NCBI RefSeq assembly: GCF_000373105.1
Contig: NZ_KB890433.1
Coordinates: forward strand, 16,286-80,285
Source: Neolewinella persica DSM 23188
GTDB taxonomy: Bacteria > Bacteroidota > Bacteroidia > Chitinophagales > Saprospiraceae
Direction of reading: 5' to 3'
Length of the DNA: 64,000 nucleotides
Below the pieces are notes generated by a model. That model was not told where the DNA came from and made no database searches. It worked only from the letters and a program-made list of their open reading frames with translations. Of this stretch, positions 1,013-62,255 are shown piece after piece; within the stretch, counting starts at the first letter, position 1; each line of letters begins with the position of its first letter. A program made the translations under genes and the position numbers.

Positions 1013-1297
1013 TCAAATCCCCGCCTTAATATTCAAAAGAATCTTTCCCTCCTTGGCACTAACCTGCAATACCTCTATATCTAGTTTGGCCAACAAGGCC
1101 TTGGGGTCAGGCGCAGCCGCAGGTGCAGTGGAATTCTTTTTGGAAGCAGGGGGAGTTGGCGTGCTTTTCAGACCGCTGAGGAAATCCATGATGCCCAGGT
1201 TAATCAGTTCATCGCTTAAGGCAATGGTACCCTCTATCCTGGTACCCTCCAGGTCTTGGAAATTAGTGTCGAAGAGGTGTTTTTGTACTGGGTGCAT
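1013..1297 (-). CDS. Small hypothetical protein, paralogue-like to its upstream neighbour
   Basis: A 94-residue protein with no signal peptide and no family I recognise. It has an N-terminal segment around residues 14-38 (FQDLEGTRIEGTIALSDELI), an Ala/Pro-rich linker at about 46-65, and a C-terminal segment IEVLQVSAKEGKILLNI. Head and tail resemble the ends of the 173-residue protein encoded just upstream (HLEGTDVRIDLSLGRTLLNE and IKHLQLHSEANCLVIEL), so the pair probably shares ancestry and an operon (61-base gap). The linker contains a copy of the class I 18-base repeat, read as APAAAP. Function unknown. Confidence 0.7.
   Translation of the reverse strand: MHPVQKHLFDTNFQDLEGTRIEGTIALSDELINLGIMDFLSGLKSTPTPPASKKNSTAPAAAPDPKALLAKLDIEVLQVSAKEGKILLNIKAGI
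1110..1127 (+). repeat. Class I 18-mer, copy a (inside a CDS)
   Basis: GGCGCAGCCGCAGGTGCA, one mismatch to the consensus GGCGCGGNCGCAGGTGCA. It lies antisense in the 94-residue gene and supplies the linker residues APAAAP. Confidence 0.75.
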
Positions 1298-1358
1298 GAT
1301 AATTTATTTTTAGTTTGGTTGACGTGGAGAGGAGGGAGAATCAGACGGAGCTAAAACA

Positions 1359-1880
1359 CTAAGCTACCAGGTGTAGCTCGATCACCAGGCAGTTCGCTTC
1401 ACTGTGCAACTGTAAATGTTTAATCATCGGAACCAGCTTCTGGTAGCCGGCAGCAGTAAGCAGGGCAGGGACGTGGAGCCGCAGATGATCTGAAGTGAGC
1501 TCGATACCACGGGGCAATTTTTCCGCAATCTGGCCCTGCATCAGTTTTATGATGGGCTTGTCCATAAACCGAAAGCCATCGGTAATTTCGAGATGTAACC
1601 ACGGTTGGCTGGGGAAGACCACCGGCCCTCCGGGCCGGAAGGTAATCCTCCGTTTTACCAGACCAATAACCGGCGCCTTAACCTCAAGGTGGAGGTTAAC
1701 CGTATTATCGTTTTCCGGATCAAGGAATAATTCTTCCACCGGCGTATCGGCCGGCCGGGCGGCTAGTACCTCATTGAGCAATGTCCGGCCCAACGATAGG
1801 TCGATCCTTACGTCAGTACCCTCAAGATGAGCTTGAGGGTTATTCAGGAGCGTTTGTAGTGGTGGCGGAAGATCGGGCAT
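1359..1880 (-). CDS. Hypothetical protein, possible lipid-binding-like beta fold
   Basis: A 173-residue soluble protein without signal peptide. It has alternating beta-rich segments (VRIDLSLGRTLLNEVLA, NLHLEVKAPVIGLVKRRITF, IELTSDHLRLHVPALL). The recurring pattern of a strand followed by LNE or LL recalls the DUF2993/YceB-like group within the TULIP superfamily, but this is a weak resemblance and not an assignment. It precedes the 94-residue relative in the same orientation. The ATG at 1880 is the only reasonable start. Confidence 0.65.
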   Translation of the reverse strand: MPDLPPPLQTLLNNPQAHLEGTDVRIDLSLGRTLLNEVLAARPADTPVEELFLDPENDNTVNLHLEVKAPVIGLVKRRITFRPGGPVVFPSQPWLHLEITDGFRFMDKPIIKLMQGQIAEKLPRGIELTSDHLRLHVPALLTAAGYQKLVPMIKHLQLHSEANCLVIELHLVA

Positions 1881-2043
1881 TACAAGGTAGGTTTAAGTGG
1901 AAAACGATTGTCTTCCCCTGCTTGTTCAACGCTCATTGCATCCTGCGTTCGCGCCTTATACTGGACGCTCAGGAACCAGGTACTATAGCGAGATTGCGTA
2001 GTGGCGGGAAAAGCTTTTTATTGGCTACTTCCCCTTTCGCTCC

Positions 2044-3438: not shown

Positions 3439-3480
3439 ACGGTAAAGTTATGGTATCCGTGGGTCGGATGTAGTATCAGT

Positions 3481-6443: not shown

Positions 6444-6461
6444 GGCGCGGTCGCAGGTGCA
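6444..6461 (+). repeat. Class I 18-mer, copy b
   Basis: GGCGCGGTCGCAGGTGCA, exact at the 17 fixed positions, followed by GGGAAGG as in other intergenic copies. It lies between two divergent genes. Confidence 0.85.
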
Positions 6462-7630: not shown

Positions 7631-7648
7631 TGCACCTGCGGCCGCGCC
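7631..7648 (-). repeat. Class I 18-mer, copy c
   Basis: Exact copy on the minus strand (GGCGCGGCCGCAGGTGCA followed by AAGAAAGG). It lies between mtfA and the next co-directional gene. Confidence 0.85.
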
Positions 7649-15054: not shown

Positions 15055-15072
15055 TGCACCTGCGACCGCGCC
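15055..15072 (-). repeat. Class I 18-mer, copy d
   Basis: Exact copy on the minus strand (GGCGCGGTCGCAGGTGCA, then AAGGGAAGG), in the divergent gap between manA and metK. Confidence 0.85.
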
Positions 15073-16638: not shown

Positions 16639-17724
16639 ATGCAAATTTTGACGATCGTAATCGGTATCATTTTCGTGTTGTTGCTGCTTAGTTTGTTGGC
16701 GACCACGATGATGGAGTTGTTGTCTTCGGTGTTTAGCCTGCGTGGCCGTAACCTGGTGAAGGCATTGCGGAACATGTTGGCCAGTTCGGATAAGAACGAG
16801 GTGCTGGTCGATGCTTTTCAGCAAAATAGCATGTACCGTCACCTGACGCAACAGTACGGACGGGAGCAGAAAGGCTTCTCGGCTCCGAGTTACATGAGTG
16901 CGGAGACCTTTCAGAGCATCCTTCTCGATGTGATTCTGAAGGGGGAACCGATCGACAACCTGGAGGAGAAGATCAAAACACTTCCGGACGAGGATTTGAA
17001 AAATGTGTTGTCTCAGTTACTGCGTGAAAGTGGGGGGCAGCGGGATTTATTCCGGTTGGAAGTCCAGAACTGGTACAACAACGTGATGGACCGTGCGGCT
17101 GGCTGGTACAAACGTTACACCCAGAAAATATTATTGCTCATGGGGCTTGGCATTGCCGTATTGTTTAACGCCGACGTGGTGGCGCTCTACGACCGGCTGA
17201 GCAATGATCCTGAGACACTTGAGCAACTGGCGGACGCTGCTGAACGGTACGTGCAAGCGCGGGACCAGGCAGGTCCGATTAAGAATCAGGCGGGGCCGCA
17301 GGTGCAAACACCGCCCGTGGCCGTCCCTTCGGGCGGCGGACCGGCACCGGTGGATACGGCGAATATGTCGGCTGCGCCAACCACCGATGCCGCCCCGGCA
17401 CCGGGCGGCGGTTATCAGCCTGCGGAGCCCGTACCGGCCACTTACCTCTATTCGGGAGAAGACGCATCGGATCAGGACTTCCGCACTTCGCTGGAGGACT
17501 TAAAGGGGCTGCTCAACAATGAGATCGCTGAAATTAAGCGTCCTCTTGGCCTTGGCTGGGAAGGGGTGTCTATGCGGGACATGGAAGCCTATGACCTGAT
17601 GTCCAAGTTGCTGGGCTTTATCCTTACCGCCCTGGCCATAAGTATGGGCGCACCGTTCTGGTTTGACCTGTTGAAGAAACTGGTGAATATTCGGAGTTCG
17701 GGGTCTAGGCCGTATGAGAATTAG
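16639..17724 (+). CDS. Membrane protein of unknown function
   Basis: A 361-residue protein with an N-terminal helix (MQILTIVIGIIFVLLLLSLL), a central helix (ILLLMGLGIAVLFNADVVAL) and a C-terminal helix (LLGFILTALAISMGAPFWF). Between the last two lies a Pro/Ala/Gly-rich loop (about residues 215-275) that includes a class I repeat read as AGPQVQ. The first loop has a helical domain with LEEKIKTLPDEDLKNVLSQL. I do not recognise the family. The start at 16639 is favoured because upstream in-frame codons are repeat sequence. Confidence 0.72.
   Translation: MQILTIVIGIIFVLLLLSLLATTMMELLSSVFSLRGRNLVKALRNMLASSDKNEVLVDAFQQNSMYRHLTQQYGREQKGFSAPSYMSAETFQSILLDVILKGEPIDNLEEKIKTLPDEDLKNVLSQLLRESGGQRDLFRLEVQNWYNNVMDRAAGWYKRYTQKILLLMGLGIAVLFNADVVALYDRLSNDPETLEQLADAAERYVQARDQAGPIKNQAGPQVQTPPVAVPSGGGPAPVDTANMSAAPTTDAAPAPGGGYQPAEPVPATYLYSGEDASDQDFRTSLEDLKGLLNNEIAEIKRPLGLGWEGVSMRDMEAYDLMSKLLGFILTALAISMGAPFWFDLLKKLVNIRSSGSRPYEN
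17289..17306 (+). repeat. Class I 18-mer, copy e (inside a CDS)
   Basis: GGCGGGGCCGCAGGTGCA, one mismatch, in the low-complexity loop of the membrane protein and read as AGPQVQ. Confidence 0.75.
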
Positions 17725-23347: not shown

Positions 23348-24375
23348 TGGGCGATCGGGATTTTTAGGGTGGCAGTAGTTTGATGACGGCCGTTGGTAGA
23401 GGCTGTAAGATGAAGCAGATCGTTCGCTTCATATTGTAAGAGGAGGCGCTGACGCAGGTGCTTAAGTCCGGACCCAGAGGCAGTGGTGGGGCGATAGTCT
23501 CCATCGTTAGTTACGGTGAGGACCCAATAGTCGTTGTTCGAATTGATGCGGACGGATATAGCTCCGCCGGCTTCTAACTGGTTGATGCCGTGCTTAATGC
23601 CATTCTCTACTAAAGTATGTAGGCTCAATGGTGGGAGCCGGCAAGCTTCAGTTCCCGGCTCAATGTACCAGTTGACCTGTAACCGTTCTTCCAGCCGCAT
23701 CTGTTCCAACGCAACGTATTCCTGGGTGATATGTATTTCCTCGCAAAGGGGGACCACCTCCCGCTCACTTTGCCGGAGGGAATATCGAAGTAACTCCGCC
23801 AGCCGATCAATGGCCTGACGGGAACGGGCGGTATCCTCCCGGGTCAATGCCTTAATACCGTTGAGGGCATTGAATAGGAAATGCGGATTCAGCTCTGCGT
23901 TCAACTTGGCCAACTGGGCCTCGACGGCCAACTTAGCGCCGCGCGCAGCGGCGGCCTCGGCCCGGGCCGACTGGCGGGCAAAATGATACCCATGAAAGCC
24001 AAGTAACCAGATGGCATGGTACCGTAATCCGCCGGCCATCGCACCGAAGAAGATGTCCCAGTTGTAAACCCCATCATACCGTAGGTGAAAAACGAAGTAT
24101 CCCATAAGTTGATATTGACCGACCAGCAGGAACCAGGCTACCAGAACTACGGGGACCAGCTGCTTGGCAGACAACCGAACCCAACCGAACCGATGGGCAA
24201 GTCGGCGATAACCATCAGTAACGATGATTTGTGAAATCACTTGCCCGATAAGGAACAATACCGGTATCAGGTAAGAACCATTAACCGGCTGCTCAAAGTG
24301 CAGCCAATACGGAATCAATGACCCCCAGCCGAGGAATTGACACCACCAATAGAGGGAGGATTTAGTGTTCAGCAT
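23344..24375 (-). CDS. LytS/YehU-type sensor histidine kinase
   Basis: A 343-residue membrane kinase with four predicted transmembrane helices in the first 135 residues. Then comes the His_kinase dimerisation domain with the phosphorylated histidine in LNPHFLFNALNGIKAL, and a short ATPase domain (TLVENGIKHGINQ as N box; NDGDYRPTTASGSGLKHLRQ as G box). It lacks a periplasmic sensor, so the signal is probably sensed within the membrane or through a partner. First gene of a two-gene operon. Confidence 0.92.
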   Translation of the reverse strand: MLNTKSSLYWWCQFLGWGSLIPYWLHFEQPVNGSYLIPVLFLIGQVISQIIVTDGYRRLAHRFGWVRLSAKQLVPVVLVAWFLLVGQYQLMGYFVFHLRYDGVYNWDIFFGAMAGGLRYHAIWLLGFHGYHFARQSARAEAAAARGAKLAVEAQLAKLNAELNPHFLFNALNGIKALTREDTARSRQAIDRLAELLRYSLRQSEREVVPLCEEIHITQEYVALEQMRLEERLQVNWYIEPGTEACRLPPLSLHTLVENGIKHGINQLEAGGAISVRINSNNDYWVLTVTNDGDYRPTTASGSGLKHLRQRLLLQYEANDLLHLTASTNGRHQTTATLKIPIAQ

Positions 24376-24741
24376 TTAGTACGCAGTGATTAGGGTTTAG
24401 GATACAGCTGTCAGGATTCAGCGATCATTAATTAGTAATCATTCCAACAGCGGCAACTCTGTGCTTCCTCAGTGCCTCCCTTCGTGCTAACCTCAGTGAG
24501 AACAGTTAGCTGCGGAGCAGCCCAGAATGCTCTGCTCTTACCCCAAAGCTAAAGGCCAAATCACAAACTCCACCCAACTAATCCCTGAATCCTGAACACT
24601 GACGGCTAAAAACTGAAACCTGACCACTGAAACCTTTACCCTGCTTCCTGGATCCTCCCCTTGCACCCGCGTTCGCGCCCCCAAAACCCGCACTCACGAA
24701 AAATCCAGGTTTTACGCAAAATCTCCCGGCATCTTAGGCCC
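24376..24741. repeat. Divergent gap with class IV words and class I copy
   Basis: 366 bases with scattered words such as AGGATTCAGCGATC and, inverted, CTGAATCCTGAACACTGA and CTGAAACCTGACCACTGAAA. It also carries a weak class III relative near 24465-24510 and a class I repeat at 24662. No gene. Confidence 0.6.
24662..24679 (-). repeat. Class I 18-mer, copy f
   Basis: Minus-strand GGCGCGAACGCGGGTGCA, two mismatches, followed by AGGGGAGG. It lies 63 bases before the S41 peptidase start, between divergent genes. Confidence 0.65.
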
Positions 24742-27375: not shown

Positions 27376-29679
27376 ATGAAGCTATTCAGATGCCTATTGC
27401 TACTGCTGGTATTAGCAGGCGCGGCCGCAGGTGCATGGTCCTGTTCAATGGCAATGAACGGTCATGCTGCGGAAACACCGGAGCCAAGTCGAAGGCAGGT
27501 ACAACGCCAGGCCATGCGGGCTTCCGTTTGGCGGTTCGTCTATTGTCTTGATGATGAAACAAAAGGGGAAGCCCTGATTAAATTACTGCACGAGGTGGCC
27601 AATACTCAGCCCTTCGAAAAGCGCATTGAAGTTCTGAGTTGTCATGACCTGAATGCAGATACGCTTGGTACCGGACCGATCACCATTTTCGGAGATCGCC
27701 TGCCAGCCGCAACTTCCGGCTTACCGTTTACCCGGACCGGAGACGGTTGGCAATTCGACCAGCGGCTCAATTTGGGTTACGACGACGTGATGTTCCTCCC
27801 ATATTACCGAAACCCCTGGAGTAAGGAAACCACCGTCACGGGCTTTTTTCTGTCCGATAACCCTGATAAGCTGGTGGAAACCTTTCGCCGGGAGTTTGAT
27901 GGTGAATGGAACCGGATGTTCCGGCCTAATTGGGCCTATGAACTCCACCGTGCCAACGGTGATAGGGTCTACGGAAATTTTGCCGATACCAGTTGGGCGT
28001 TCGACGCTACCGAGGAGGTCACGCTGGAGTCGCCCGACGTACCCATATACGACCAGGGAGGCCTGAAGATTTTCGCCTACGACGGCGCCGTAAGAAACGA
28101 GGAATTGGCCTATTCTGTCGCCGGCGTTGCCGGCGTCAGGCAACTGTTCGATTCTCTGACCGGTGTCACTACAGATTGGTACCCCGAAGTTAGGCTGTAC
28201 CCAACCCTGGAGCGCATCGGTCTTCGGAAGGGCAACATGAACCCCGTACAGTACGATGCCGCCGATGAAGTGCTGCATATCGTACCATGCTTTCTCGACG
28301 AAGCGGAGATTCTGGCGTCCTTCACCACCTGGCAGCCGTTTTTAGAACACTATATTGGAGGGGAGTTTCCCGGGCACAACCTGAAATACCTTACGGCAAT
28401 TCTGCAGGCACATTCCATCTCTGAATCAAAGGACCCATTCGACCGGGCCATGGATAATGCACTCCGCGTATGGGAGTCTGGCTTGCTGAAGGGTACTTCC
28501 GATTTAGATCGGGAACGTCCATCCGATTTCATAAATGAAAGCGTGGCCAGGGTATGGGCCAGAGGGGTGGACGCAAATAACCCCGCCAAGGTAAATTCAA
28601 TTATTACCAATTTACGGAAAGCAGAAGTTCCTGACCGGGAATTCGGAGTTTACAATGTTGCCGATTACGATCCACCAAAAATCAGCCATCGGGAAATACC
28701 GGCCGTTAACCTCGGTGGGATGACTTTCGCTCATGAAGGCTACCGCGTCCACAACGGTTATGGCGGGGAGAAAATTAAGCCTTCGCTCGATAGTTTGGGC
28801 GAGCTCAACGTCAATGCGCTGGCCATTGTACCCTACACTTTCATGCGGGATCCGAAAAAGCCGACCTCCCTTTTCATCCCTTCGGATGCTGGCGGCGAAA
28901 ATGATTGGGCGACCATCTGTTCTGCGCGCGAGGCCCAAAAGCGCGGTTGGTTCGTCTTGCTGAAACCACAAATCTGGATCGGCGGTGGACACTGGCCAGG
29001 CGACGTCGACTTCGCCACCGATGAAGAATGGGATACCTTCTTCGACAGCTACACCTACTGGATTATGCACTACGCCCTACTCGCCGAGCAGGAGAAAATT
29101 GGCGGTCTTTGCCTCGGTACAGAACTGGTAAAAACTACCCTGAAACACCCGGACCGCTGGCGGGAGATCATTCGCAAAGTCCGCAAAGTATACGGTGGGC
29201 AATTGACCTACGCCGCTAACTGGGGCGAAGAATTCGAAGGCTTTACCTTCTGGGAAGACCTGGATGCCATCGGCCTCAACTCTTATTACCCAATCAGCGA
29301 AAGTGATACGCCAACTGACGAAGAACTCCTCACCGGCGCCCGTCGCTGGATGAAACTTGCCGCCGAAGTAAGCAGGAAGACCGACCGTCCACTCTGGTTA
29401 ACCGAAGTAGGTTATCGCTCCGTCACCAATGCCTGGAAAAACCCACACGCTGATGGCGGTGACCGCGCTGAAGATGCAGAAACCCAGGCCCGTTGCTACC
29501 GCGCCATGCTCACCGCTGGCGGCGAAACGCCTGAACTGAAGGGGATGTTCTTGTGGAAATGGCCGAGTTACCTTGGCCGCGAAGGCGGCCGGCACCAGGG
29601 AAAAGAATTCTGTATTGGCGGGAAGCCTGCTGCACGGGAGCTGGCCCAGTTTTATGGTGATTGGGGTATTGGGAAATGA
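27376..29679 (+). CDS. GH113-like glycosidase with unknown N-terminal domain
   Basis: A 767-residue predicted lipoprotein (N terminus MKLFRCLLLLLVLAGAAAGA then WSC). Residues about 30-430 form a region I do not recognise (FGDRLPAATSGLPFTRTGDG, YDDVMFLPYYRNPWSKETT). Residues about 440-765 look like a GH113-type TIM barrel, a family known for endo-mannanases: FAHEGYRVHNGYGG, LLKPQIWIGGGHWPGDVDF, the probable acid/base Glu near 582 in GLCLGTELVK and the nucleophile Glu near 676 in LWLTEVGYRS. A class I repeat encodes GAAAGA in the signal peptide. Polysaccharide attack outside the cytoplasm is the likely role. Confidence 0.82.
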   Translation: MKLFRCLLLLLVLAGAAAGAWSCSMAMNGHAAETPEPSRRQVQRQAMRASVWRFVYCLDDETKGEALIKLLHEVANTQPFEKRIEVLSCHDLNADTLGTGPITIFGDRLPAATSGLPFTRTGDGWQFDQRLNLGYDDVMFLPYYRNPWSKETTVTGFFLSDNPDKLVETFRREFDGEWNRMFRPNWAYELHRANGDRVYGNFADTSWAFDATEEVTLESPDVPIYDQGGLKIFAYDGAVRNEELAYSVAGVAGVRQLFDSLTGVTTDWYPEVRLYPTLERIGLRKGNMNPVQYDAADEVLHIVPCFLDEAEILASFTTWQPFLEHYIGGEFPGHNLKYLTAILQAHSISESKDPFDRAMDNALRVWESGLLKGTSDLDRERPSDFINESVARVWARGVDANNPAKVNSIITNLRKAEVPDREFGVYNVADYDPPKISHREIPAVNLGGMTFAHEGYRVHNGYGGEKIKPSLDSLGELNVNALAIVPYTFMRDPKKPTSLFIPSDAGGENDWATICSAREAQKRGWFVLLKPQIWIGGGHWPGDVDFATDEEWDTFFDSYTYWIMHYALLAEQEKIGGLCLGTELVKTTLKHPDRWREIIRKVRKVYGGQLTYAANWGEEFEGFTFWEDLDAIGLNSYYPISESDTPTDEELLTGARRWMKLAAEVSRKTDRPLWLTEVGYRSVTNAWKNPHADGGDRAEDAETQARCYRAMLTAGGETPELKGMFLWKWPSYLGREGGRHQGKEFCIGGKPAARELAQFYGDWGIGK
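27418..27435 (+). repeat. Class I 18-mer, copy g (inside a signal peptide)
   Basis: Exact copy, read in frame as GAAAGA just before the lipobox cysteine of the GH113-like protein. Confidence 0.85.
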
Positions 29680-31624: not shown

Positions 31625-31737
31625 TCAGGGCGCGGCCGCAGGTGCAAAGAAAGGAACAACGGAAGCAAGGTGAGCGCTCGGCTAAAGTCGGGGCGCTGCC
31701 TCCAAAACCTCCTTTTGCACCTGCGGCCGCGCCCTGA
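31625..31737. repeat. Class I inverted pair, copies h and i
   Basis: Copy h (31629-31646, plus) and copy i (31716-31733, minus) are both exact. The perfect pairing extends to 24 bases, 31625-31648 with 31714-31737 (from TCAGGGCGCGG to GGTGCAAA), around a 65-base centre. It lies after the sugar dehydrogenase gene. The rest of 31580-31903 has no gene. Confidence 0.88.
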
Positions 31738-39120: not shown

Positions 39121-39195
39121 GGCGGGGCCGCAGGTGCAGGGAAAGGACTTTGAGCAAGGGGGGCAGTTACGGTTCTCTGCACCTGCGGCCCCGCC
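39121..39195. repeat. Class I inverted pair, copies j and k
   Basis: Copy j (39121-39138, plus) and copy k (39178-39195, minus) both carry the same deviation, GGCGGGGCCGCAGGTGCA, and pair perfectly over 19 bases around a 37-base centre. They lie in the divergent gap between the AsmA-like gene and rnd; the remainder of 38941-39386 shows no gene. Confidence 0.85.
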
Positions 39196-40783: not shown

Positions 40784-43700
40784 CTACCGAACCACCACCC
40801 TCCGAATCACCGTCCCCTTAGCCAAAGGCACCGCAATGAAGTAACTCCCCTGCGCCAAATGGCCTAGGGATATGGTTTGCGTTCCGGCAAGGTTGCTGGA
40901 GGCGGCTACCTGACGTCCCGCCATGTCGAGTACCTGAATGGGGCCGTTGATCCGGGTGGTGCCAGTCTCTACAGTAACCATGTCAGCGGTGAGGGTAGGG
41001 TAGACCAGCAGTTGGTCATCTTCCGCTACCGGACTTTCAAGGCCGGTGTTCAGATCGCGTTCGCCGTTGGCGAAGAAATACCCCCAGTGTCCACCTTCAA
41101 TGAGGCCGGCGGCATTTCCGCTGGCGGATATTTTGTCTGCAGCCAACGGAATGATTGCCAGGATATCGACATCTGCATCGGTTTGGGCGTCAAAGACCAG
41201 GCGATCATCGGAAAGGCCATAATTTGGGTAGTTGACTTTTCTGTTCCGGAAAATGGTGCTACTGGCGCCAGTTTCAATATTGGCACCGATGATGCTGAAG
41301 GTGCCGGCGTCAAAGTCTACTTCCTCGTAAGCAATGATGTAAGGGGAGTTTTTGGAGAAAGTAGGGTTGCCCGTGCTGCTGCCTTCGGGCAGGTCGGTGG
41401 ATAGTTTGAAAATTGCTCCGTCGCCGAAACGGGCCTGACTTGCATCCCAGGCGCGTAGAAACCCGATGTCCCAGAACTCAAGGCCATCGTCGAGCCGGCT
41501 GAGGGCATCGTACATCAGGAACTGACCACCGGGTTCCCATTCCAATGCATCGGCGTACTGCACATCTCCGGTAGAGATGCCGCTGGCGGAGGTTGGGTTG
41601 GAAAGATTAAGGAACTCACCTTGCTGCGTAACGAAGTCGAAGATGAGGATACGATTATCATTGTCCGTAGTAGTTACGGCAATCCGGTCTCCGTCTTTAC
41701 TAATGGCGATGTTACGCCAAATGGTTTGTGGGTCTCCTTCGATGAAGTCTAACTCATTGGTGCCGAAATAGAAGGCGCGCAACCGCCCCTGGTCATCGAC
41801 AAACACAGCGGTGCTGCCATCGTCGGTTATGCTCGGCTTACTGCCCAAGCCTACTGTAACCAACGGGTTCTCAATCAGGGTTCCGTCTTCCTGAGCGAGA
41901 AATAAGGCACTCGCTCCGGTATTCGCCAGGAGTAAAAAACGATCTCCTTCATTATCATCCAGGTCTACGGTATAATCTCCGGCCTCTCCGCCAATGCCTA
42001 CGCCAGCAAAGGCGTTCTCTGCCGCAGCTACTACGTTAGCTCCGAACATCCCGGCTGCCTCCACCACCGCAAGGCGTAGATCTGCAAACCGGCTGGAACG
42101 GGTGAGGCCCTCGGTAAGTGCTTTGTAGTACACCCTTCCGGCGATATCATCGCCAACGGCGGGGTCACTACTGAAAAGATAGAACGCCCGGTTAGGAATG
42201 CCACTGTTTACGTGTACACCTCCCCGGTCACCTTCTTCGGTGTTGGGCAAGGTGACGTATTCATCCATGTGCGCGGGCTGCCAGCCTCTTTGACCGAAAC
42301 GGTTAGCGCCATTGTTCGGGTTGCGCATATCACGCAACGCACCGCTCGGGAAAGCGGAGGTTACGACGTCTTCACCGACACGGTAATCGCCCGTTTCTCC
42401 TTCGATGAGGTAGCCGAAGATGTCGGCAAATGATTCGTTCATGGCTCCGGGCTGCTCTTCGTAAATCAGGTCAGCAGAGTTTTGTATCACCCCGTGAGAC
42501 ATTTCATGGCCGGCAACGTCCAGACCACGAGGGAGCCGTTGGAAGGCATCGACGCCATTACCATAAAAGAGTGCACGACCATTCCAGAAGGCATTATCCA
42601 TTTGGGTACCATCCGTTTCATTGATGTTCATGAATGAAAGGACGTTGCCTCCTGATCCGTCGATAGAATTGCGTTGGTGCTTGTCCAGAAAGTACTGATA
42701 GGCACTACCTGCGTTGGCGTGAACGCTGGCTTCGGTCTTACTCCAGCCAGTATTATTGAGGGAAAACCGCAGACCTGGCTCAAAGTCTTCGCGCAGTGGA
42801 GTAGAGCCACCACCATCGTAGGTAAGGATGAAACCATTGAGTCGGCCGCCGGCAGTACTGAACATTGGCTTTGTTCCATCAAGAAGATAAAAAGTGTCCT
42901 GAAGCGAAAAGGTGTTGAGGGTGATGTTCCGGTCGTAAAGGTCTTGTACTACCACGGTAGCGGGACCATCCATTATTAGCGTTGCAGGGGTTGCAGTTGT
43001 TGCAGGGGGGGCAAGTGTGGCAGTTGTTGCAGCACGATGGTGGCCATCTGCAAATCCGCAGGTATGGGTGTATTCGGCAAGTACTTCGCCGGTGTGCGCG
43101 TCGAGGTAAAGACTGGTATGTTCCAGTAAATTGGGGCGTACATGAGCTTGCCACGCAAGTTTGGCTTCCGATCCGGTAGGGTAGAAGATGACCAGTTCCA
43201 GGGATAGTTGGGGACCAGAAATCCAGTCCAGTTGCTTAGGGCTCAGGTCGGTCCACTGCTCCAAAAACCTGTTTTGCACCTGCGCCCGCGCCGCTACTTC
43301 GCTAAGGTCCGGTACTGTATTGGTAAGTTGGGGCGTTGGCTGGAGGCGTCCGGTATAAAGGTCAAAACCCCCGCCATGACTATGTAGACGGGCATCAGCT
43401 GGCAGCACTGGAATGCCGGCATAAACTTGCGCTATCCTGAGGTGCTTATAACCTTGTGCATCAACGATTTCGTCGGTAATTTTTAGCTCCAGGTACGGAT
43501 CTTCAATACCCAGATCTGCACTGACAGCGGCCAGATAGGCCTGGGCGTCTTCCTTGTCGGGTCGGGCATCTGGGAGGTTCGTTGGGCGACCGCGGAGTGC
43601 ATAAACCTGGCCATTATCCGGGTCCGTACTAATCTTAACTCCCGGTGTACCTGTTCTGTTAATCGGGCGGATGTTTGCGGGATTCAGGCGCGGCCGCAGG

Positions 43701-43876
43701 TGCGAAAGATGGGTGGCAGGAGCAATGGCCGGCGTACGTCGAAGGCTGAAGTCCAGCGCATCCGGGTCGACCTCAGCAGGTATTGCCGGCTTCTGCAGGA
43801 CTTGTTTGAAGGGCTGCTGTGCAGATAAACTGAAAGAAGCAAATAAGGTGGCAATTAAAAAGGAGAATCGTAACAT
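40784..43876 (-). CDS. Secreted M4 (thermolysin-like) metallopeptidase with T9SS tail
   Basis: A 1030-residue exported protease: signal peptide (ends SLSA-Q), an FTP/PepSY-type propeptide to about residue 270, then the M4 catalytic domain. The zinc motif GHEMSHG lies near residue 457 and the third ligand in NESFADIFGYLIEG; HVNSGIPNRAFYLF is the typical C-terminal helix with the proton-donor His. About 250 residues of WD/TolB-like repeats follow (DRIAVTTTDNDNRILIFDFV), and the tail (VYPTLTADMVTVETGTTR to IRRVVVR) is a T9SS sorting domain. Two class I repeats lie in the propeptide. Likely role: extracellular protein digestion. Confidence 0.92.
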   Translation of the reverse strand: MLRFSFLIATLFASFSLSAQQPFKQVLQKPAIPAEVDPDALDFSLRRTPAIAPATHLSHLRPRLNPANIRPINRTGTPGVKISTDPDNGQVYALRGRPTNLPDARPDKEDAQAYLAAVSADLGIEDPYLELKITDEIVDAQGYKHLRIAQVYAGIPVLPADARLHSHGGGFDLYTGRLQPTPQLTNTVPDLSEVAARAQVQNRFLEQWTDLSPKQLDWISGPQLSLELVIFYPTGSEAKLAWQAHVRPNLLEHTSLYLDAHTGEVLAEYTHTCGFADGHHRAATTATLAPPATTATPATLIMDGPATVVVQDLYDRNITLNTFSLQDTFYLLDGTKPMFSTAGGRLNGFILTYDGGGSTPLREDFEPGLRFSLNNTGWSKTEASVHANAGSAYQYFLDKHQRNSIDGSGGNVLSFMNINETDGTQMDNAFWNGRALFYGNGVDAFQRLPRGLDVAGHEMSHGVIQNSADLIYEEQPGAMNESFADIFGYLIEGETGDYRVGEDVVTSAFPSGALRDMRNPNNGANRFGQRGWQPAHMDEYVTLPNTEEGDRGGVHVNSGIPNRAFYLFSSDPAVGDDIAGRVYYKALTEGLTRSSRFADLRLAVVEAAGMFGANVVAAAENAFAGVGIGGEAGDYTVDLDDNEGDRFLLLANTGASALFLAQEDGTLIENPLVTVGLGSKPSITDDGSTAVFVDDQGRLRAFYFGTNELDFIEGDPQTIWRNIAISKDGDRIAVTTTDNDNRILIFDFVTQQGEFLNLSNPTSASGISTGDVQYADALEWEPGGQFLMYDALSRLDDGLEFWDIGFLRAWDASQARFGDGAIFKLSTDLPEGSSTGNPTFSKNSPYIIAYEEVDFDAGTFSIIGANIETGASSTIFRNRKVNYPNYGLSDDRLVFDAQTDADVDILAIIPLAADKISASGNAAGLIEGGHWGYFFANGERDLNTGLESPVAEDDQLLVYPTLTADMVTVETGTTRINGPIQVLDMAGRQVAASSNLAGTQTISLGHLAQGSYFIAVPLAKGTVIRRVVVR
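43275..43292 (-). repeat. Class I 18-mer, copy l (inside a CDS)
   Basis: Exact copy (GGCGCGGGCGCAGGTGCA), read as ARAQVQ in the propeptide of the M4 protease. Confidence 0.85.
43687..43704 (+). repeat. Class I 18-mer, copy m (inside a CDS)
   Basis: GGCGCGGCCGCAGGTGCG, one mismatch, antisense in the M4 protease gene and read as SHLRPRL. Two copies in one gene, in opposite orientation, 394 bases apart. Confidence 0.8.
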
Positions 43877-45627: not shown

Positions 45628-47022
45628 CTACTCCATCACGTCATATTCTTTAATCTTCCGGTACAAAGTCCGCTCACTGATGCCAAGCTCGGCAGCGGCT
45701 TCTTTCCGGCGCCCTTTGTGCTTACGCAGGGCTTTACGGATGAGCTCTTTTTCAGCGTTGGCGAGGCTGAGGTCTTCGTCCACTACTTCACTTTCATCGT
45801 AGGAACGTTGCATACGGGAATCCACGATGATGGGGTCCACGTTACCAGTTGACGGGTGATAGACCTGCTGACCTCCATTGCTCACTGGTCTGCCTCCTGC
45901 ACCTGCGTACCCGCCCCCTGAAGAAGCTGAGGTGGAAGTAATGTCCAGGTCGCGCAAGTCATAAGCTTCGGTCGCAATATTGCCGGCATCTGCTGCAAAC
46001 CGGTTGATCTCTTCTGCCGCTGCAGGGTAATTGCCTGGCAAGGACAACGACTGTACCCTCGCTACATCCCGGACCCTGAGATCGTTACTTCTGATCAGGT
46101 CCGCAATCAGGTTCTTGAGTTGTGTCATGTCCTCCTTCATGTCGAAGAGGACTTTGTATAAAATTTCCCGCTCTTGAAAGCTGTTGCCGGATCCTTCCCC
46201 GAGGTCTTGCTGACGAATGGCCGGAAGGTTTCGTTTCATCAACTGTGGCATCAACTCTGCCAGGTCAACGGCTGTCAGGTCCCGCTTTTCAGAGAGTATG
46301 CTCAGGCGCTCAGCAGCATTTTTCAGTTCACGGATATTACCTGGCCAGGCGTAATTCTCCAAGAGCCATCGGGCTTCTTCATCAAGCTGGATTGGCTCGA
46401 TACTTTGCTTCTCCGCAAAGTTGTTGGCAAAATAGCGGAATAGGAGGTAAATGTCCTCAGACCGTTCCCTTAAACTCGGCATCTCTATCGGCACCGTACT
46501 TAACCGGAAATACAGGTCCTCCCGAAATTTCCCGTCGCGTACCCGCTCCATCAGCTTGCGATTGGTCGCTGCAACGACGCGTACATCTGTTTTCTGGACC
46601 TTATTTGAGCCCATCCGAATGAAATCTCCGTTCTCCAGTACCCGTAAGAGAAAAGTTTGGGTCTGAAGGGGCATTTCTCCGATTTCATCCAGGAAGATGG
46701 TCCCACCGTCCAGGGTTTCAAAATACCCCTTTCTGGCACCGTCAGAGCTGGTGTAGGCACCTTTGACGTGGCCAAACAGTTCAGAATTAATGGTGCCCTC
46801 TGGCAACGCACCGCAGTTAATGGCAATAAAGCCCTGGTGCTTCCGGGCACTGTTGTCGTGGATAATCCGACTGATGACCTCTTTGCCCACGCCGGATTCT
46901 CCGGTAATGAGTACGGATAGATCCGAGGGGGCAACCCGTAAAGCTGTGTTAAGTGCATTCTCCAGGGCTGGAGAGCGACCTACGATACCGTATCGGCGTT
47001 TTATGGAGTCAATATTAGCCAT
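45628..47022 (-). CDS. Sigma-54-dependent Fis-family activator without receiver domain
   Basis: A 464-residue enhancer-binding protein: AAA+ domain at about 10-250 with Walker A ITGESGVGKEVI, Walker B GGTIFLDEIGEMP and arginine-finger segment FREDLYFRLSTVPI. A Fis-type helix-turn-helix ends the protein (KHKGRRKEAAAELGISERTL). There is no N-terminal regulatory domain. The sigma-54 contact loop, normally GAFTGA, reads GAYTSS. The linker between AAA+ and HTH is low in complexity and contains a class I repeat (YAGAGG). Such a gene follows miaB in many Bacteroidota. Confidence 0.9.
   Translation of the reverse strand: MANIDSIKRRYGIVGRSPALENALNTALRVAPSDLSVLITGESGVGKEVISRIIHDNSARKHQGFIAINCGALPEGTINSELFGHVKGAYTSSDGARKGYFETLDGGTIFLDEIGEMPLQTQTFLLRVLENGDFIRMGSNKVQKTDVRVVAATNRKLMERVRDGKFREDLYFRLSTVPIEMPSLRERSEDIYLLFRYFANNFAEKQSIEPIQLDEEARWLLENYAWPGNIRELKNAAERLSILSEKRDLTAVDLAELMPQLMKRNLPAIRQQDLGEGSGNSFQEREILYKVLFDMKEDMTQLKNLIADLIRSNDLRVRDVARVQSLSLPGNYPAAAEEINRFAADAGNIATEAYDLRDLDITSTSASSGGGYAGAGGRPVSNGGQQVYHPSTGNVDPIIVDSRMQRSYDESEVVDEDLSLANAEKELIRKALRKHKGRRKEAAAELGISERTLYRKIKEYDVME
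45898..45915 (-). repeat. Class I 18-mer, copy n (inside a CDS)
   Basis: GGCGGGTACGCAGGTGCA in gene sense, two mismatches, read as GGYAGA in the linker of the sigma-54 activator. Confidence 0.6.
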
Positions 47023-48855: not shown

Positions 48856-48930
48856 CAAGAGGTTGTTGTAGCAAGCATTAAGGGATTAGGGTTTGTCGGT
48901 TAGAACTTTAAGCTAGCCGACAGGTTTCAG

Positions 48931-49034: not shown

Positions 49035-49059
49035 GGGGTTTTCCTAATTTCACGATTTC

Positions 49060-50178
49060 CTAATTCTCCAATTCACTCAAAGCGTAAATGGCAAAGGACC
49101 CCAGCCAATGCCCGCCTTCATAGCTGTCACCAACCAGGTTTGGTAAGGAGTAGTTGGTATGTTGGTTGGCGAGGTTCTTTAGGTGGCCGTATTGGGAAGG
49201 GTACTGTTGGGCTAATCCGTACAGGACCCAGGCGCGACTAAAGTTGAGTCCGTCGAGGTGAACGAGTTTGCCGTCGGATCGGTCAGATACTTCACCAACG
49301 GGCAGCGTGTAATCCGACTTGGTAATCGCGGGTAGGAAATCGGTTAGCCAGGGATGAAAGTCATTAGCTGGAAGAATTCGGCGCATGATGTCGATTTCCT
49401 CCAGGCAGGGACTGAGGAAATCGTAGCCACCGGGCTCCCAGGAAATTGGGCAGTCCTGATCGTTAAGGTAAAACCGACGCGCAGTACGGTCGATCTCCGC
49501 TAGGAATGTAGCATCATCAGTGGCCTCGGCGTAGTCGTAGGCGAAGGTGAGTCCAAAGGCGGTATTGGGATGTTCCCCGGTGCGAATCGCATAATTTAGC
49601 CGGGGTAAAAAGTCGAGGTAGCGGGCAACGATCAGCTCAGAAAGTGGGCGGAGGTTTGCGCGTAATTCCTTTGCGATCGGGTCTTCCCAACGCAGTAATT
49701 CCTCGTCGAGTTTCAATATCCATGCCCAGCCGTAGGTACGTTCGTAGCTCTTATTGTGGGTGCCGTTGAAGTAGGCAACCTCTGCGTTGATATTGTCTGC
49801 TGAGAGGTTGGTTTGCAGCATTTTTCGGGCCTGCTCTGCGCGCTTTAGGTTGGGGAATTTACGCAGTAGGGCAACTAAAGACCAATGACCATGGACGGCG
49901 CTGTGCCAGTCGAAACACCCATAAAATGCCGGATGTAACGTACTGGGTTCTCCCAAATCTTCCTTACTGCCGATCGTCTGACCTAACTTATTTGGGTACT
50001 CATGCTGAATACAGGCCAGTGGTAAATCTGCCAGCCGATCAGCTTGCGCCAACGTCAGTTCAGGAGTAGGGTAGGTCATGGCGGAAGGATTGGTAGCGCT
50101 TGTTTCATTCTCAGGCGCGGACGCAGGTTCCGTGCAAGTGGTAAGGAGCAGGGGGAGGGCAAACAGCAGGTATCTCAT
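49060..50178 (-). CDS. DUF2891 family lipoprotein
   Basis: A 372-residue lipoprotein (lipobox LTTC, mature N terminus CTEPASAPEN). It follows the DUF2891 pattern closely: HPAFYGCFDWHSAVHGHWSL, ERTYGWAWILKLDEELLRWE, NTAFGLTFAYDYAEA, WEPGGYDFLSPCLEE, DGKLVHLDGLNFSRAWVLYG and EGGHWLGSFAIYAL. The fold is probably an alpha/alpha barrel resembling glycosidases, but no activity is established. The class I repeat at 50114 supplies the lipobox cysteine codon and the first residues of the linker. Confidence 0.88.
   Translation of the reverse strand: MRYLLFALPLLLTTCTEPASAPENETSATNPSAMTYPTPELTLAQADRLADLPLACIQHEYPNKLGQTIGSKEDLGEPSTLHPAFYGCFDWHSAVHGHWSLVALLRKFPNLKRAEQARKMLQTNLSADNINAEVAYFNGTHNKSYERTYGWAWILKLDEELLRWEDPIAKELRANLRPLSELIVARYLDFLPRLNYAIRTGEHPNTAFGLTFAYDYAEATDDATFLAEIDRTARRFYLNDQDCPISWEPGGYDFLSPCLEEIDIMRRILPANDFHPWLTDFLPAITKSDYTLPVGEVSDRSDGKLVHLDGLNFSRAWVLYGLAQQYPSQYGHLKNLANQHTNYSLPNLVGDSYEGGHWLGSFAIYALSELEN
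50114..50136 (+). repeat. Class I repeat, copy o, with 5-base insertion (inside a CDS)
   Basis: GGCGCGGACGCAGGT, then TCCG, then TGCA. In gene sense (minus) it reads CTEPASAP and its TGC is the lipobox cysteine codon of the DUF2891 protein. Confidence 0.6.
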
Positions 50179-50290: not shown

Positions 50291-50308
50291 TGCACCTGCG
50301 ACCCCGCA
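50291..50308 (-). repeat. Class I 18-mer, copy p
   Basis: TGCACCTGCGACCCCGCA on the plus strand, two mismatches, preceded by CCTTCCCC as in other intergenic copies. It lies between two leftward genes. Confidence 0.65.
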
Positions 50309-54112: not shown

Positions 54113-54130
54113 GGCGCGGCCGCAGGTGCA
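54113..54130 (+). repeat. Class I 18-mer, copy q
   Basis: Exact copy in the divergent 365-base gap between the beta-helix gene and the NIPSNAP gene. The rest of the gap (53978-54342) shows no gene. Confidence 0.85.
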
Positions 54131-54901: not shown

Positions 54902-55657
54902 TTAAGCCTGTCTTGCGGCCATTACGAAACGGCGCACTTCGGCTTCACTGGTTACCTGACGTTCATATTCTGGCAAGCCGGGAATCCCCATATAAACTGC
55001 CGGGTTTTGGTGCTGCATTCGGCTGGTTAGGGTCCCGAAGGCAGTAGCGTGAAACTCCGTCACGCCAGTTTGAGCAATGACCTCCGCCACATTTTCCGGA
55101 AAAATACCACAACCGGGAAGGATGCCGATTCGGCCTGCCGCCTGTTCCACCAGTCGCCTGAGTTGTTTGGTTCCTTGTGGCACCGTCGCGGCTTGTCCAG
55201 AGGTCAGTATCCGGTCCACACCCAGTTCAATGAGGGTTTCCAGTGCGGTAAAGGGATCAAGACAAACATCAAACGCCCGGTGGAAGCAAACGGAGAGTTC
55301 TTTCCCTGCTTCTTCCACCAGTCTTTGCACCTGCGTCCGCGCCACCGTACCATCCTGTTTCAACATTCCGAACACCACGCCAGTAACGCCGATGCCGTGC
55401 AAATTTCGAATATCTTGCACCATCACGTCCAGCTCCCGATCAGTATAATCAAAGTCTCCGCCCCTGGGCCTTATCATGACCATTATGTCGATATCAACGG
55501 CATCCCGGCAAGCCTTCACGGTGCCCAGGCTTGGGGTAATGCCCCCTTCTACCAGCGCCGCACACAGTTCCACCCGGTCGGCACCACCCCGTTCGGCGGC
55601 AACTGCCCCGTCAACGGATTGGAGGCAAACTTCAAATTTTGGATTAGCAGAAGTCAT
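54902..55657 (-). CDS. cutC: CutC family protein
   Basis: A 251-residue TIM-barrel protein. Family motifs: FEVCLQSVDGAVAAERGGAD, VELCAALVEGGITPSLGTVK, IMVMIRPRGGDFDYTDRELD, GVTGVVFGMLKQDGTV, LSVCFHRAFDVCLDPFTALE and RILTSGQAATVPQG. CutC was first linked to copper homeostasis; its enzymatic role remains uncertain. An exact class I repeat encodes residues ARTQVQ at about 106-111, without changing the spacing expected from E. coli CutC. Confidence 0.93.
   Translation of the reverse strand: MTSANPKFEVCLQSVDGAVAAERGGADRVELCAALVEGGITPSLGTVKACRDAVDIDIMVMIRPRGGDFDYTDRELDVMVQDIRNLHGIGVTGVVFGMLKQDGTVARTQVQRLVEEAGKELSVCFHRAFDVCLDPFTALETLIELGVDRILTSGQAATVPQGTKQLRRLVEQAAGRIGILPGCGIFPENVAEVIAQTGVTEFHATAFGTLTSRMQHQNPAVYMGIPGLPEYERQVTSEAEVRRFVMAARQA
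55326..55343 (-). repeat. Class I 18-mer, copy r (inside cutC)
   Basis: Exact copy in gene sense (GGCGCGGACGCAGGTGCA), read as ARTQVQ in a helix of CutC. Confidence 0.8.
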
Positions 55658-58366: not shown

Positions 58367-58368
58367 TA

Positions 58369-60284: not shown

Positions 60285-60286
60285 CA

Positions 60287-60484: not shown

Positions 60485-62094
60485 CTATCCTCATCTCCCC
60501 GATCATAGTCAGGAACCCGCGCCGAAGCCCCCGCATTATCCGCCATATATCCATCGGACAAAGGATAATCATCGGTTGTCACCCCACCAGCATTGAACCA
60601 TTCCTTCCGAATGTGTTCCGCTACCCGGATGGCGTTAGCGATGATCGTCAGTGTAGGGTTCGTCGCACCCTGCGAAGGTTGGAAGCTGGCGTCGACAACG
60701 TAAAGATTGTCCAGGTCCCAGGCCTTACAATTGGGGTCGAGGACGCTGGTTTTCGGGTTCGTTCCGAACTGCGCCGTCCCGGCCTGGTGCCAGGTGAACT
60801 CGAGTTCCTTGGTGGATCGGTAAAACTCACTGAATCCTGCTTTCTCCAAATAGTTCTGCTGGAAGTAATCCAGGAACTCGAAGTGGCTCTCCCGGTTGTT
60901 TGGCCGGTAGTTGAACTTGATGCCTTTACCTGTCCATTCGATTCGGTTGTGGCGGTCGGGGAGGTCTTCTGAGGTGAACCAAAAGTCGACGGCCAGGCGC
61001 TGCATTCGTCTGGCTTCTTCTTCCGTCAGGCCGAGGTGGCCATAGTCGCCCAGGATGCGGGTGTAGTGCGCCTTGCCGGTCAGCTGAATAGTACCGAGTG
61101 GGTAGGGGTGTTCGGGGCTGCCGTGGTAGAAATCGTGGCAACCGAGGGTCTTCTGGAAGACGACGTCGTTGTCCTTATCCGGGTTAATGGCAGAAATACC
61201 GCTCTGGTTATGCTTGGTGAAATTACGGCCGACCTGGTCGGAGGAGTTCGCTACTTTGGATTTTAGCAGCAGCGCTGCTGAGTTAATGGCCCCGCAGGAA
61301 ACGACGATGATGTCGGCGCTCAACTCCATCTTTTCTCCGTCACGCTCCAATTCAATTCTGGTGATTTTTCCATTTTCTTCCACCAGCCGATCAACGCGGG
61401 AGTTGGTCCACAGCGTCACGTTTTTGTGCTTCAGGGCGGGGCGGATCAGGGCGGTTTCTGCGTCTGATTTCGCGTGGAGCATGCACGGGAAGGGGTCGCA
61501 GGTATTACAGGCGATGCAGGGCCGCTTCCAGGGTTCGTTAATGTCGCGGTTGAGGGCCAGATTAGAGTGATGAATATTAAGGCCCAGCTTACCGAGGTCT
61601 GCGGCGACCTCCGCAATCCGCCCTTCATGTGGGAAGGCGGGGAAAGGGAATGGGCCACTTGCGGGGCCTTCTGTCGGATCTTCTCCCCGGTTGCCATGAA
61701 TTTTCATCACGTGCTCTGCCATCATATAATAAGGCTCGAACTCGTCGTACCCGATGCACCAGCCGGGAGAAATACCGCCCTTATGTTGCTGCTCAGTAAA
61801 ATCCTCCGGCCGTTGACGGTGCAGAAGTGCTCCGTACATTTTGGTGTTGCCCCCTACACGGTGATAAACAATGGGCTTCACCGTTTGTCCGTCGGGGCCC
61901 TCCCATTCCACCGGTGCTTTGTAGCCGTCTTTTCCGAAGATGAAGTGCGGATCCCAGTTTCGTTTTTCGCGGGGGAGGAAGCTGCCTTGTTCAAGGATCA
62001 GTATTTTCTTACCGGTGTCGGCCAGCGTGTAGGCCATAGTACCGCCGCCTGCGCCGGAGCCGATGATGATAACGTCGTAGTTGGATGTAGTCAA
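60472..62094 (-). CDS. GMC family oxidoreductase
   Basis: A 540-residue FAD enzyme. The FAD-binding motif is at the N terminus (YDVIIIGSGAGGGTMAYTLA ... ILILEQG). The GMC C-terminal domain has the active-site His in TWHQAGTAQFGTNPKTSVLD and NLYVVDASFQPSQGATNPTL. Four cysteines in PCIACNTCDPFPCMLHAKSD are typical of Bacteroidota GMC relatives of gluconate/glucoside 3-dehydrogenases. No signal peptide is seen. The start is a TTG at 62094 in the sequence AACTTGACT, right where a class VII repeat ends, so the repeat forms the immediate 5' flank. Confidence 0.9.
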   Translation of the reverse strand: MTTSNYDVIIIGSGAGGGTMAYTLADTGKKILILEQGSFLPREKRNWDPHFIFGKDGYKAPVEWEGPDGQTVKPIVYHRVGGNTKMYGALLHRQRPEDFTEQQHKGGISPGWCIGYDEFEPYYMMAEHVMKIHGNRGEDPTEGPASGPFPFPAFPHEGRIAEVAADLGKLGLNIHHSNLALNRDINEPWKRPCIACNTCDPFPCMLHAKSDAETALIRPALKHKNVTLWTNSRVDRLVEENGKITRIELERDGEKMELSADIIVVSCGAINSAALLLKSKVANSSDQVGRNFTKHNQSGISAINPDKDNDVVFQKTLGCHDFYHGSPEHPYPLGTIQLTGKAHYTRILGDYGHLGLTEEEARRMQRLAVDFWFTSEDLPDRHNRIEWTGKGIKFNYRPNNRESHFEFLDYFQQNYLEKAGFSEFYRSTKELEFTWHQAGTAQFGTNPKTSVLDPNCKAWDLDNLYVVDASFQPSQGATNPTLTIIANAIRVAEHIRKEWFNAGGVTTDDYPLSDGYMADNAGASARVPDYDRGDEDSWGA

Positions 62095-62135
62095 GTTGTC
62101 GGGTTGTCGAGTTGTCGGGTTGTCGAGATCCCGAA
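62092..62135. repeat. Class VII words at the GMC gene start
   Basis: CAAGTTGTCGGGTTGTCGAG, then TTGTCGGGTTGTCGAG. These are the same 8-base alternating words as at 55661-55711, and they touch the TTG start codon of the oxidoreductase. Confidence 0.75.
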
Positions 62136-62237
62136 TTGGTTAATTAGCTGGTGTCGAGAACATCAACTTTCGTGCTTGCTTAAGCGTGAAAGGACCAGGA
62201 TGGTTCATCTTTAGGAGTAGTTAATTATTCAGGTTTG

Positions 62238-62255
62238 GGCGCGGTCGCAGGTGCA
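62238..62255 (+). repeat. Class I 18-mer, copy s
   Basis: Exact copy (GGCGCGGTCGCAGGTGCA, followed by GAGGAAGG) in the divergent gap between the GMC gene and the DUF1573 gene. Confidence 0.85.

Follow-up and report, generated by a model that had tools for sequence, protein, structure and literature searches.

In several Neolewinella species, a sequence tag recurs roughly every six kilobases on each strand separately. Copies on the same strand are about five times rarer within 3 kb of each other than expected (35 pairs against 172 over five species). Since same-strand copies are excluded while opposite-strand copies are free, each strand carries a copy every 5–10 kb. We interpret the tag as the core of a mark of self DNA, akin to uptake sequences but read one strand at a time, an interpretation to which we assign a probability of roughly 0.45. 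Should it be a mark of this type, it would be the first for the Bacteroidota as far as our literature searches reach, apparently operating without a type IV pilus, and the strand-specific spacing would hint at the physical process of its reading, one strand at a time and over ~3 kb.

The window, by which we mean the whole 64,000-nucleotide stretch analyzed here, holds 20 matches to GGCGCGGNCGCAGGTGCA at up to three mismatches, 10 of them exact, against an expectation of 0.24 (100 shuffles, largest count 1). An initial annotation of this DNA had listed 19 copies; every coordinate and strand in it (10 plus, 9 minus) is right, as are its ten exact copies; the twentieth, at 23445, was absent from that list. 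The copies recorded simply as word matches are exact at 6444..6461 (+), 7631..7648 (−), 15055..15072 (−) and 54113..54130 (+), carry one mismatch at 1110..1127 (+) and 17289..17306 (+), and carry two at 23445..23462 (+) and 24662..24679 (−). Inward-facing pairs are formed by the exact copies at 31629..31646 (+, left half) and 31716..31733 (−, right half), by the one-mismatch copies at 39121..39138 (+, left half) and 39178..39195 (−, right half), and by the two-mismatch copies at 50114..50131 (+), which sits at a signal-peptide-like gene start, and 50291..50308 (−). An exact copy at 27418..27435 (+) lies near the predicted signal-peptide-like start of the gene at 27376–29679. Within coding sequence, an M4-type peptidase gene holds an exact copy at 43275..43292 (−) and, on the other strand, a one-mismatch copy at 43687..43704 (+); in a sigma-54 activator gene, a two-mismatch copy at 45898..45915 (−) falls in the linker, and cutC contains an exact copy at 55326..55343 (−). 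The exact copy at 62238..62255 (+) lies between genes, and three congeners (G003, G007 and G014) have a plus-strand copy of their own near the same gene, at other positions but at most about 330 bases away. Rfam models at gathering scores found one tRNA only over the window.

Among 105 copies that deviate from the core at no more than one base, information reaches from roughly −5 to roughly +41 relative to it. The site is thus ~40 bp long and asymmetric, comprising a T-rich flank, GGCG, a 4- or 6-base spacer, CGCAGGTGCA and a purine tail; the looser A/G-rich flank described earlier is real, and longer than had been described. As the initial annotation held for the word, there is no palindrome: neither a hairpin nor fixed boundaries are present in these 105 copies. 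Its statement that the word encodes nothing constant needs correction, in that the reverse orientation encodes the end of some predicted signal peptides (..LLxCTCGRAQ). Copy scores are bimodal, with few degenerate copies.

The excess extends to the whole genome (G000, 7,080,844 bases), where 869 + 875 copies, 1,744 in all, occur at up to two mismatches against 2 + 1, or 3, for the reversed pattern, as would befit an uptake sequence, a high-copy non-palindromic word on both strands. The strand balance noted in the window likewise holds genome-wide and along contigs (56 plus and 56 minus on 360 kb; replichores unmapped), giving no sign of a leading-strand signal. The word, or a dialect of it with a 6-base spacer, is found in 19 of 20 congeners and is confined to the genus Neolewinella (Saprospiraceae), all 39 genomes from outside the genus having just 0–16 matches. 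The twentieth congener, G010, uses a word that is for the most part different but occurs as densely and with the same spacing. Dialects among related species are again a feature of uptake sequences. The G010 strand counts are 42 and 29. An exact-word scan of genome contigs gave at least 100 stretches; among the 80 listed, 58 were from Neolewinella, Lewinella or Saprospiraceae/Bacteroidia bins and 22 from scattered other taxa. A de novo word search, for which a Neisseria-type DUS, G010 and G013 served as positive controls, found nothing comparable in 100 kb of G021 and 60 kb of G025, which belong to other genera, or in 100 kb of E. coli. Low densities escape this search, since 40-kb samples of the copy-bearing congeners G004 and G015 also gave nothing. 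A single nhmmer model for all dialects was dominated by G000 and G014 and was left unused.

Intergenic regions and gene starts, as defined by a home-made gene caller, are rich in copies, a placement that might suggest a transcription terminator or promoter element. However, convergent gaps are poor in copies (5 in 9.3 kb, against 29 in 17.9 kb of divergent gaps), gene-body copies run sense and antisense about equally (21 and 23), and the hairpin is lacking; location and orientation counts rule out such an element for practical purposes.

The presence in genes that was noted earlier is borne out by the peptidase, sigma-54 activator and cutC copies, and bears on whether the site is a mobile element (a MITE, REP/RAYT or other insertion), as its many near-identical copies and bimodal scores might suggest. 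The 43275 site is also found in G003, G007, G014 and G018 in gap-free alignment, and the 43687 site in the same four despite different encoded residues. Apart from a single mismatch at most, the cutC core is conserved in all 5 congeners aligned, and no gap interrupts either the core or the 22 bases that follow; the CutC domain bearing it matches over its length (199 residues on 198 profile positions). Signal peptides that contain copies are of ordinary length. Orthologues could be compared for 22 of 73 coding sites in G000 and G014, a small number, scored with a G000-type matrix that can miss dialect copies in congeners. At the 8 sites outside the sigma-54 linker where a congener lacks the site, none looks inserted: 6 are gap-free, 1 has a one-residue gap, and at 1 the congener without the site is 7 residues longer. 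The sigma-54 linker differs, as its site occurs in 5 of 20 congeners and the linker is 10–15 residues shorter in 9 of the 15 without it, which fits either insertion or linker loss. That linker aside, the orthologue comparison gives a mobile element no support; we regard one as highly improbable, and the REP elements once suggested for the word are likewise unsupported. Gain by substitution, also inside genes, is instead what the 8 informative sites indicate, as in uptake sequences.

The strand rule itself was measured in samples of five species. Same-strand pairs closer than 3 kb number 18 against 71.6 expected in 464 of the 7,081 kb of G000, 3 against 27.3 in 260 kb of G014, 5 against 19.6 in 146 kb of G005, 1 against 18.4 in 240 kb of G013 and 8 against 35.5 in 220 kb of G010, whereas opposite-strand pairs are as frequent as expected (69 against 70 in G000; 7 against 7.4 in phage records). 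These expectations assume uniform placement; in strand shuffles, done for G000 and G014, the observed value was never reached in 5,000. Spacing per strand is regular, with a CV of 0.43–0.62 in the five species, and in the low-density G017 the plus strand alone is regular (CV 0.58 and 0.93; contig C1, the minus-strand place 222664, presumably matched by chance, was dropped, and a place read with both spacers was counted once). Close pairs mostly point inward in G000 (21 against 3 outward below 300 bp) and among the places listed for G002 on contigs C19–C21 (8 to 2), the tendency being weak in G014 (5 to 3), G005 (2 to 1) and G013 (2 to 2). Sites with a near same-strand neighbor score no lower than others, which lends no support to a decay of redundant copies.

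Regular spacing under selection would also be expected of a chromosome-architecture site, bound directionally by a nucleoid or loop-forming protein, and the per-strand regularity, the close inward pairs and the phage carriage described below are in its favor. Against it, in some congeners the words we searched for reach only ~0.15–0.3 of the density seen in G000 (copies in further dialects could escape such a search), G010 would need its whole site set changed, and phages would need the site too; we consider such a role improbable. Lower still we place a strand-specific nick or processing site of a putative relaxase- or HUH-like transfer system moving single-stranded segments between same-strand sites, with which the strand-specific exclusion and the asymmetry of the site would be consistent.

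The main rival, although an unlikely one in our estimate, is a putative Chi-like site that, when met from one side, switches a helicase-nuclease of the RecBCD/AddAB type from degradation to repair. With such a directional switch, copies would have to cover the two strands regularly and independently, and temperate phages would keep the site in order to survive; exclusion on one strand with a free opposite strand fits this coverage. All 30 genomes searched, G010 among them, encode a protein with the PF12705 nuclease domain; in the one such protein examined, from G012, this domain is combined with a helicase domain of the UvrD type. The core also contains GCAGGTG, which resembles E. coli Chi, GCTGGTGG. 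However, Chi is leading-strand biased, whereas the site has no such bias on 360 kb, and E. coli Chi as measured here has no same-strand exclusion (17 against 16.4 below 3 kb) and is irregular (CV 1.38, inflated by pooling four regions of different density). If the site were Chi-like after all, it would tie self/non-self discrimination to phage carriage.

The same spacing rule holds in two temperate phages and in one phage-like record, with 0 same-strand pairs below 3 kb against 6.7 expected, and an integrase is encoded in two of the three. Accumulation in temperate phages is thus seen in the two integrase records, whose host would be Neolewinella, and is a further feature of uptake sequences: USS-bearing temperate phages of Pasteurellaceae are known, according to a passage in PMC6776037. 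A putative phage record, G065, has weaker copies.

Returning to the self-DNA mark, we envision that the ~40-bp asymmetric site marks the DNA of Neolewinella and of temperate phages as self, and that a putative sequence-specific receptor or DNA-processing protein would favor acquisition, protection or recombination of the strand that bears a correctly oriented site. If a single strand with a site is favored, site-bearing alleles would spread by biased transfer (molecular drive), as uptake sequences are held to do; biased DNA acquisition would be the force, and the process would read one strand. If one site per strand per ~3 kb suffices, a second same-strand site within that distance would be undriven, whereas a site on the opposite strand would represent an independent chance; ~3 kb may then be the length of the acquired tract. 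More tentatively, we suggest that this mark is genus-wide, a ~30–40-bp site tiling each strand of chromosome and resident phages every ~5–10 kb with ~3-kb same-strand exclusion and serving a pilus-free acquisition or processing system, its word almost wholly changed in G010 with the spacing kept.

The uptake signal proposed in the initial annotation thus gains from density, strand balance, dialects, genic copies and temperate phages, but not from the strand-specific spacing or the machinery. PF00437, the secretion/pilus ATPase family and sole pilus family searched, gave no convincing match in 21 genus genomes (one 55% complete), the matches being partial and at most ~25.5 bits against a cut-off of 24.9. 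All 19 genus genomes searched have the competence gene ComEC, but so do genomes without the word; with both ComEC and the PF12705 protein in all 19, these genes are uninformative about co-variation with the word. The words differ among G000, G001/G006 and G010, a ready comparison for finding the receptor by co-variation. Our literature searches found no report of Neolewinella transformation; for another member of the phylum, Riemerella columbina, PMC7965970 reports a preference for self DNA in transformation.

Among known dispersed signals, REP/RAYT and MITE elements likewise have many dispersed copies; unlike these inserted, usually palindromic units, the Neolewinella site has no palindrome, no fixed boundaries and no insertion at informative coding sites outside one linker. 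Chi sites are likewise dispersed and species-specific, and they are directional, which the strand-specific spacing suggests for this site as well; Neolewinella also has a nuclease-helicase protein of broadly the kind that acts with Chi. At 5–8 bases, however, known Chi sites are far shorter than this site, which also differs in its lack of strand bias and in its same-strand exclusion. To our knowledge, no dispersed signal with this strand grammar has been described. The DUS of Neisseriaceae and the USS of Pasteurellaceae resemble the site in copy number (on the order of a thousand or above, both strands included), in a non-palindromic word, in presence in and between genes, and in dialects among relatives, although their core is 9–12 bases against ~40 bp here. 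A passage in PMC1939737 credits the even spacing of USS to Karlin and colleagues, and its author holds there that it is not even enough for compaction. For Bacteroidota, PMC7965970 lists just A/T-rich k-mers, their function untested, unlike the long Neolewinella site. Our DUS yardstick shares the close inward pairs; below 3 kb its same-strand pairs stand at 0.83 and its opposite-strand pairs (beyond 50 bp) at 0.85 of expectation, a figure not matched in scale as the yardstick is denser (per-strand mean 2.3–2.4 kb), and below 300 bp at 0.45 and 0.57. A DUS-bearing genome without strand-specific exclusion indicates that the rule is no general property of uptake sequences: spacing there is strand-blind, whereas in the five Neolewinella species same-strand pairs fall to 0.05–0.26 of expectation.

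The 18-base core word, for which the initial annotation had listed 19 positions in the window (1110–62255), is part of a longer, genome-wide mark. Those positions were right: the window holds 20 copies with at most three mismatches, 10 of them exact, where 0.24 are expected. The whole Neolewinella persica genome (G000; 7.08 Mb, 84 contigs) carries 869 + 875 copies with at most two mismatches on the two strands, against 2 + 1 matches for the core word read backwards, which served as the control. Across 105 aligned copies, a T-rich 5′ flank precedes the 18-base core, followed by a purine tail, a T-rich step and a second purine stretch; the A/G-rich flank first described (RRGRAAGG) is present, but the mark extends further, to about +41. 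A weight matrix run over 464 kb of G000 sets the copies cleanly apart from background: a 6-bit threshold gives 162 matches and a 20-bit threshold 139, as against 6 and 0 on the same sequence reversed. The balance of strands noted initially also holds, at 56 plus and 56 minus copies on the longest stretch (360 kb).

Successive copies alternate in strand (108/145 in G000, and 48/65 and 50/70 in the congeners G014 and G010) because same-strand copies within 3 kb of each other are rare. Observed over expected, such pairs number 18/71.6 in G000, 3/27.3 in G014, 5/19.6 in G005, 1/18.4 in G013 and 8/35.5 in G010 (counted by the different word it uses), or 35 against 172 for the five species pooled, and counts are back at expectation by 3–4 kb in G000 and G014. 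Shuffling the strands 5,000 times, with the positions kept in place, never brought the count down to that observed, the lowest shuffle being 26 in G000 and 5 in G014. There is no overall deficit of opposite-strand copies: G000 has 69 such pairs within 3 kb for 70 expected (inward-facing 45/35, outward-facing 24/35), with an inward excess below 300 bp (21 inward versus 3 outward) that is weak in other species. The coefficient of variation (CV) of per-strand spacing is 0.43–0.62 in the same five genomes and 0.58–0.65 in part of G002; in the low-density G017, regular spacing is limited to the plus strand (CV 0.58 versus 0.93).

Two known words served as yardsticks. For DUS we used a genome with 1,437 DUS12 words, from a search of 399 genomes of another order; its 336 copies in 400 kb are denser than the Neolewinella mark, include many inward pairs under 50 bp, and have per-strand CVs of 0.87 and 0.78, with same-strand pairs below 300 bp at 0.45 and opposite-strand pairs at 0.57 of expectation. 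Within 3 kb, its two classes of pair do not differ: same-strand pairs reach 0.83 of expectation (350/424), and opposite-strand pairs more than 50 bp apart reach 0.85 (353/414). Nor is there any exclusion among the 41 Chi copies found in 200 kb of E. coli (same strand 17/16.4, opposite 15/15), whose CV, with regions pooled, is 1.38. The spacing rule is therefore not general to such words. The strongest rival explanation, that the mark is a Chi-like directional site, would give the same strand geometry; the mark's lack of strand bias, its length and the E. coli yardstick speak against it.

In 464 kb of G000, mark density per kb is 0.16 in genes (62 copies), 0.93 in tandem gaps (40), 1.6 in divergent gaps (29) and 0.54 in convergent gaps (5). 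Many copies lie near gene starts, within signal-peptide-like stretches of ordinary length. Reverse orientation prevails there, with 15 copies versus 3 forward at 25–75 bases past the predicted start, and 16/17 (G000) and 8/9 (G014) in the first 100 bases; in gene bodies the orientations are near equal (same/opposite 21/23 and 10/13, respectively). Separately, an intergenic element of about 100 bases (window ~48924–49045) has copies, mostly 77–85% identical, in three congeners: G014 holds them at more than ten places, and G018 and G003 each have some. Rfam gave no match to the element at gathering score.

Outside one linker, the coding copies that could be compared appear to have been gained without the ~13-residue insertion expected from a jumping element. 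Orthologues were comparable for 22 of 73 coding copies sampled from G000 and G014. Leaving out a sigma-54 activator, eight sites had a site-less congener, and none showed such an insertion: six alignments were gap-free, one had a one-residue gap, and in the other the site-less congener was 7 residues longer. The sigma-54 activator linker carries its site in 5 of 20 congeners; of the 15 without, nine miss 10–15 linker residues, as either an insertion or a linker loss would leave, and six differ by 0–4. In cutC, the core copy is conserved to within one mismatch in 5/5 congeners, the next 22 bases being included in the gap-free alignment, within a CutC domain of no added length. Both copies in the M4 peptidase gene recur in G003, G007, G014 and G018; the one at 43687 keeps its DNA word despite differing encoded residues. 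The same gene contains a stretch (42981–43032) that matches many places of the G000 genome, in tandem copies spaced by about 27 bases. By the gene near 62238, three congeners carry a plus-strand copy that is differently placed, which points to turnover of sites. Nearby, ~56 bases of short CAACCTGTAACCTG-like tandem units (62348–62405) have many matches in G003 and some in G002.

Among the matches listed, the exact core occurs in N. agarilytica, aurantiaca, lacunae, antarctica and litorea, and in Lewinella or Saprospiraceae/Bacteroidia bins; these groups account for 58 of 80 stretches, the other 22 being scattered over other taxa. In the 60 genomes searched, core copies number 10 to 1,744 in G000 and its 20 congeners, and 0 to 16 in 39 other genomes of the family and order (0 to 3 in 36 of them). 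The genus bearing the mark is probably Neolewinella. Congeners poor in the G000-type core are G001 (10), G010 (10) and G006 (60). G001 and G006 use a dialect with a 6-base spacer, GGGCGNCGGRGCGCAGGT, in 428 and 299 copies with at most one mismatch, compared with 41 in G000 and 0 or 1 per genome in 19 genomes outside the genus; G002 has spacers of 4, 5 and 6 bases side by side. In G010, neither the G000-type core nor GGGCGNCGGRGCGCAGGT exceeds controls, and a fresh k-mer search gave RRCAYTGCTACTTTGNNAGCCAAAA, with clearly bimodal scores; over 220 kb its 71 copies, 42 on the plus and 29 on the minus strand, amount to 0.32 per kb. The opposite strand of RRCAYTGCTACTTTGNNAGCCAAAA, TTTTGGCTNNCAAAGTAGCARTG, is superposable on the G000 site (T-tract, GGC, spacer, ..GT.GCA), and the two are probably homologous dialects. 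Low-density congeners carry the mark near 0.03–0.15 per kb, in small samples and with a search model favouring G000-type words.

Phage records carry the mark as well. A set of 59 exact-match stretches included IMG/VR records in which strong copies recur: G060 (38.7 kb) has 8 copies and G061 (44.6 kb) 11, and in the phage-like G065 (30.9 kb) the copies are weaker. We take G060 and G061 for temperate phages because, among 10 proteins scanned per record, both encode an integrase and a terminase, and G060 also repressor-like proteins. Since the word is shared, these phages probably infect Neolewinella; together the three records have 0 same-strand pairs within 3 kb (6.7 expected) and 7 opposite-strand pairs (7.4 expected). 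Two groups of related viral records, about 91–100% identical within each (L236, L239, L240, L243, L244; L223, L230, L245, L250, L266), retain copies at corresponding places.

A molecular drive like that of uptake sequences, which would spread mark-bearing alleles, fits four features: the gain of sites without insertion, the dialects, the placing of copies where they are tolerated, and carriage by temperate phages. If acquired DNA were read one strand at a time, a strand-specific spacing rule would follow: a second same-strand site inside the acquired length would add nothing, while an opposite-strand site would. Every genus genome searched encodes ComEC and a PF12705 nuclease protein, neither of which decides between mechanisms; their genes lie within about 10 kb on one contig in 8 of these 19 genomes (G001, G004, G006, G008, G011, G012, G016, G017).

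Published observations support the comparison with uptake sequences: USS are evenly spaced (cited from Karlin and colleagues; PMC1939737) and present in Pasteurellaceae temperate phages (PMC6776037), uptake-type words show orientation bias within genes (PMC2346458), and Riemerella columbina prefers self DNA, with no established word (PMC7965970). Searches of openly available papers on uptake sequences, transformation or competence in Bacteroidota, Saprospiraceae or Lewinella/Neolewinella, and on repeats or motifs in Lewinella, gave no report of a comparable word. The uptake-sequence comparison does not fit in two respects, the strand rule and the pilus ATPase, no convincing example of which was found with PF00437 in 21 genus genomes. 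The initial likeness to uptake sequences would therefore hold as to kind, a putative self-mark, but not as to identity with DUS/USS, since two tested features do not hold; we file the mark as a variant of that kind, whose same-strand exclusion within 3 kb sets it apart from the DUS yardstick.
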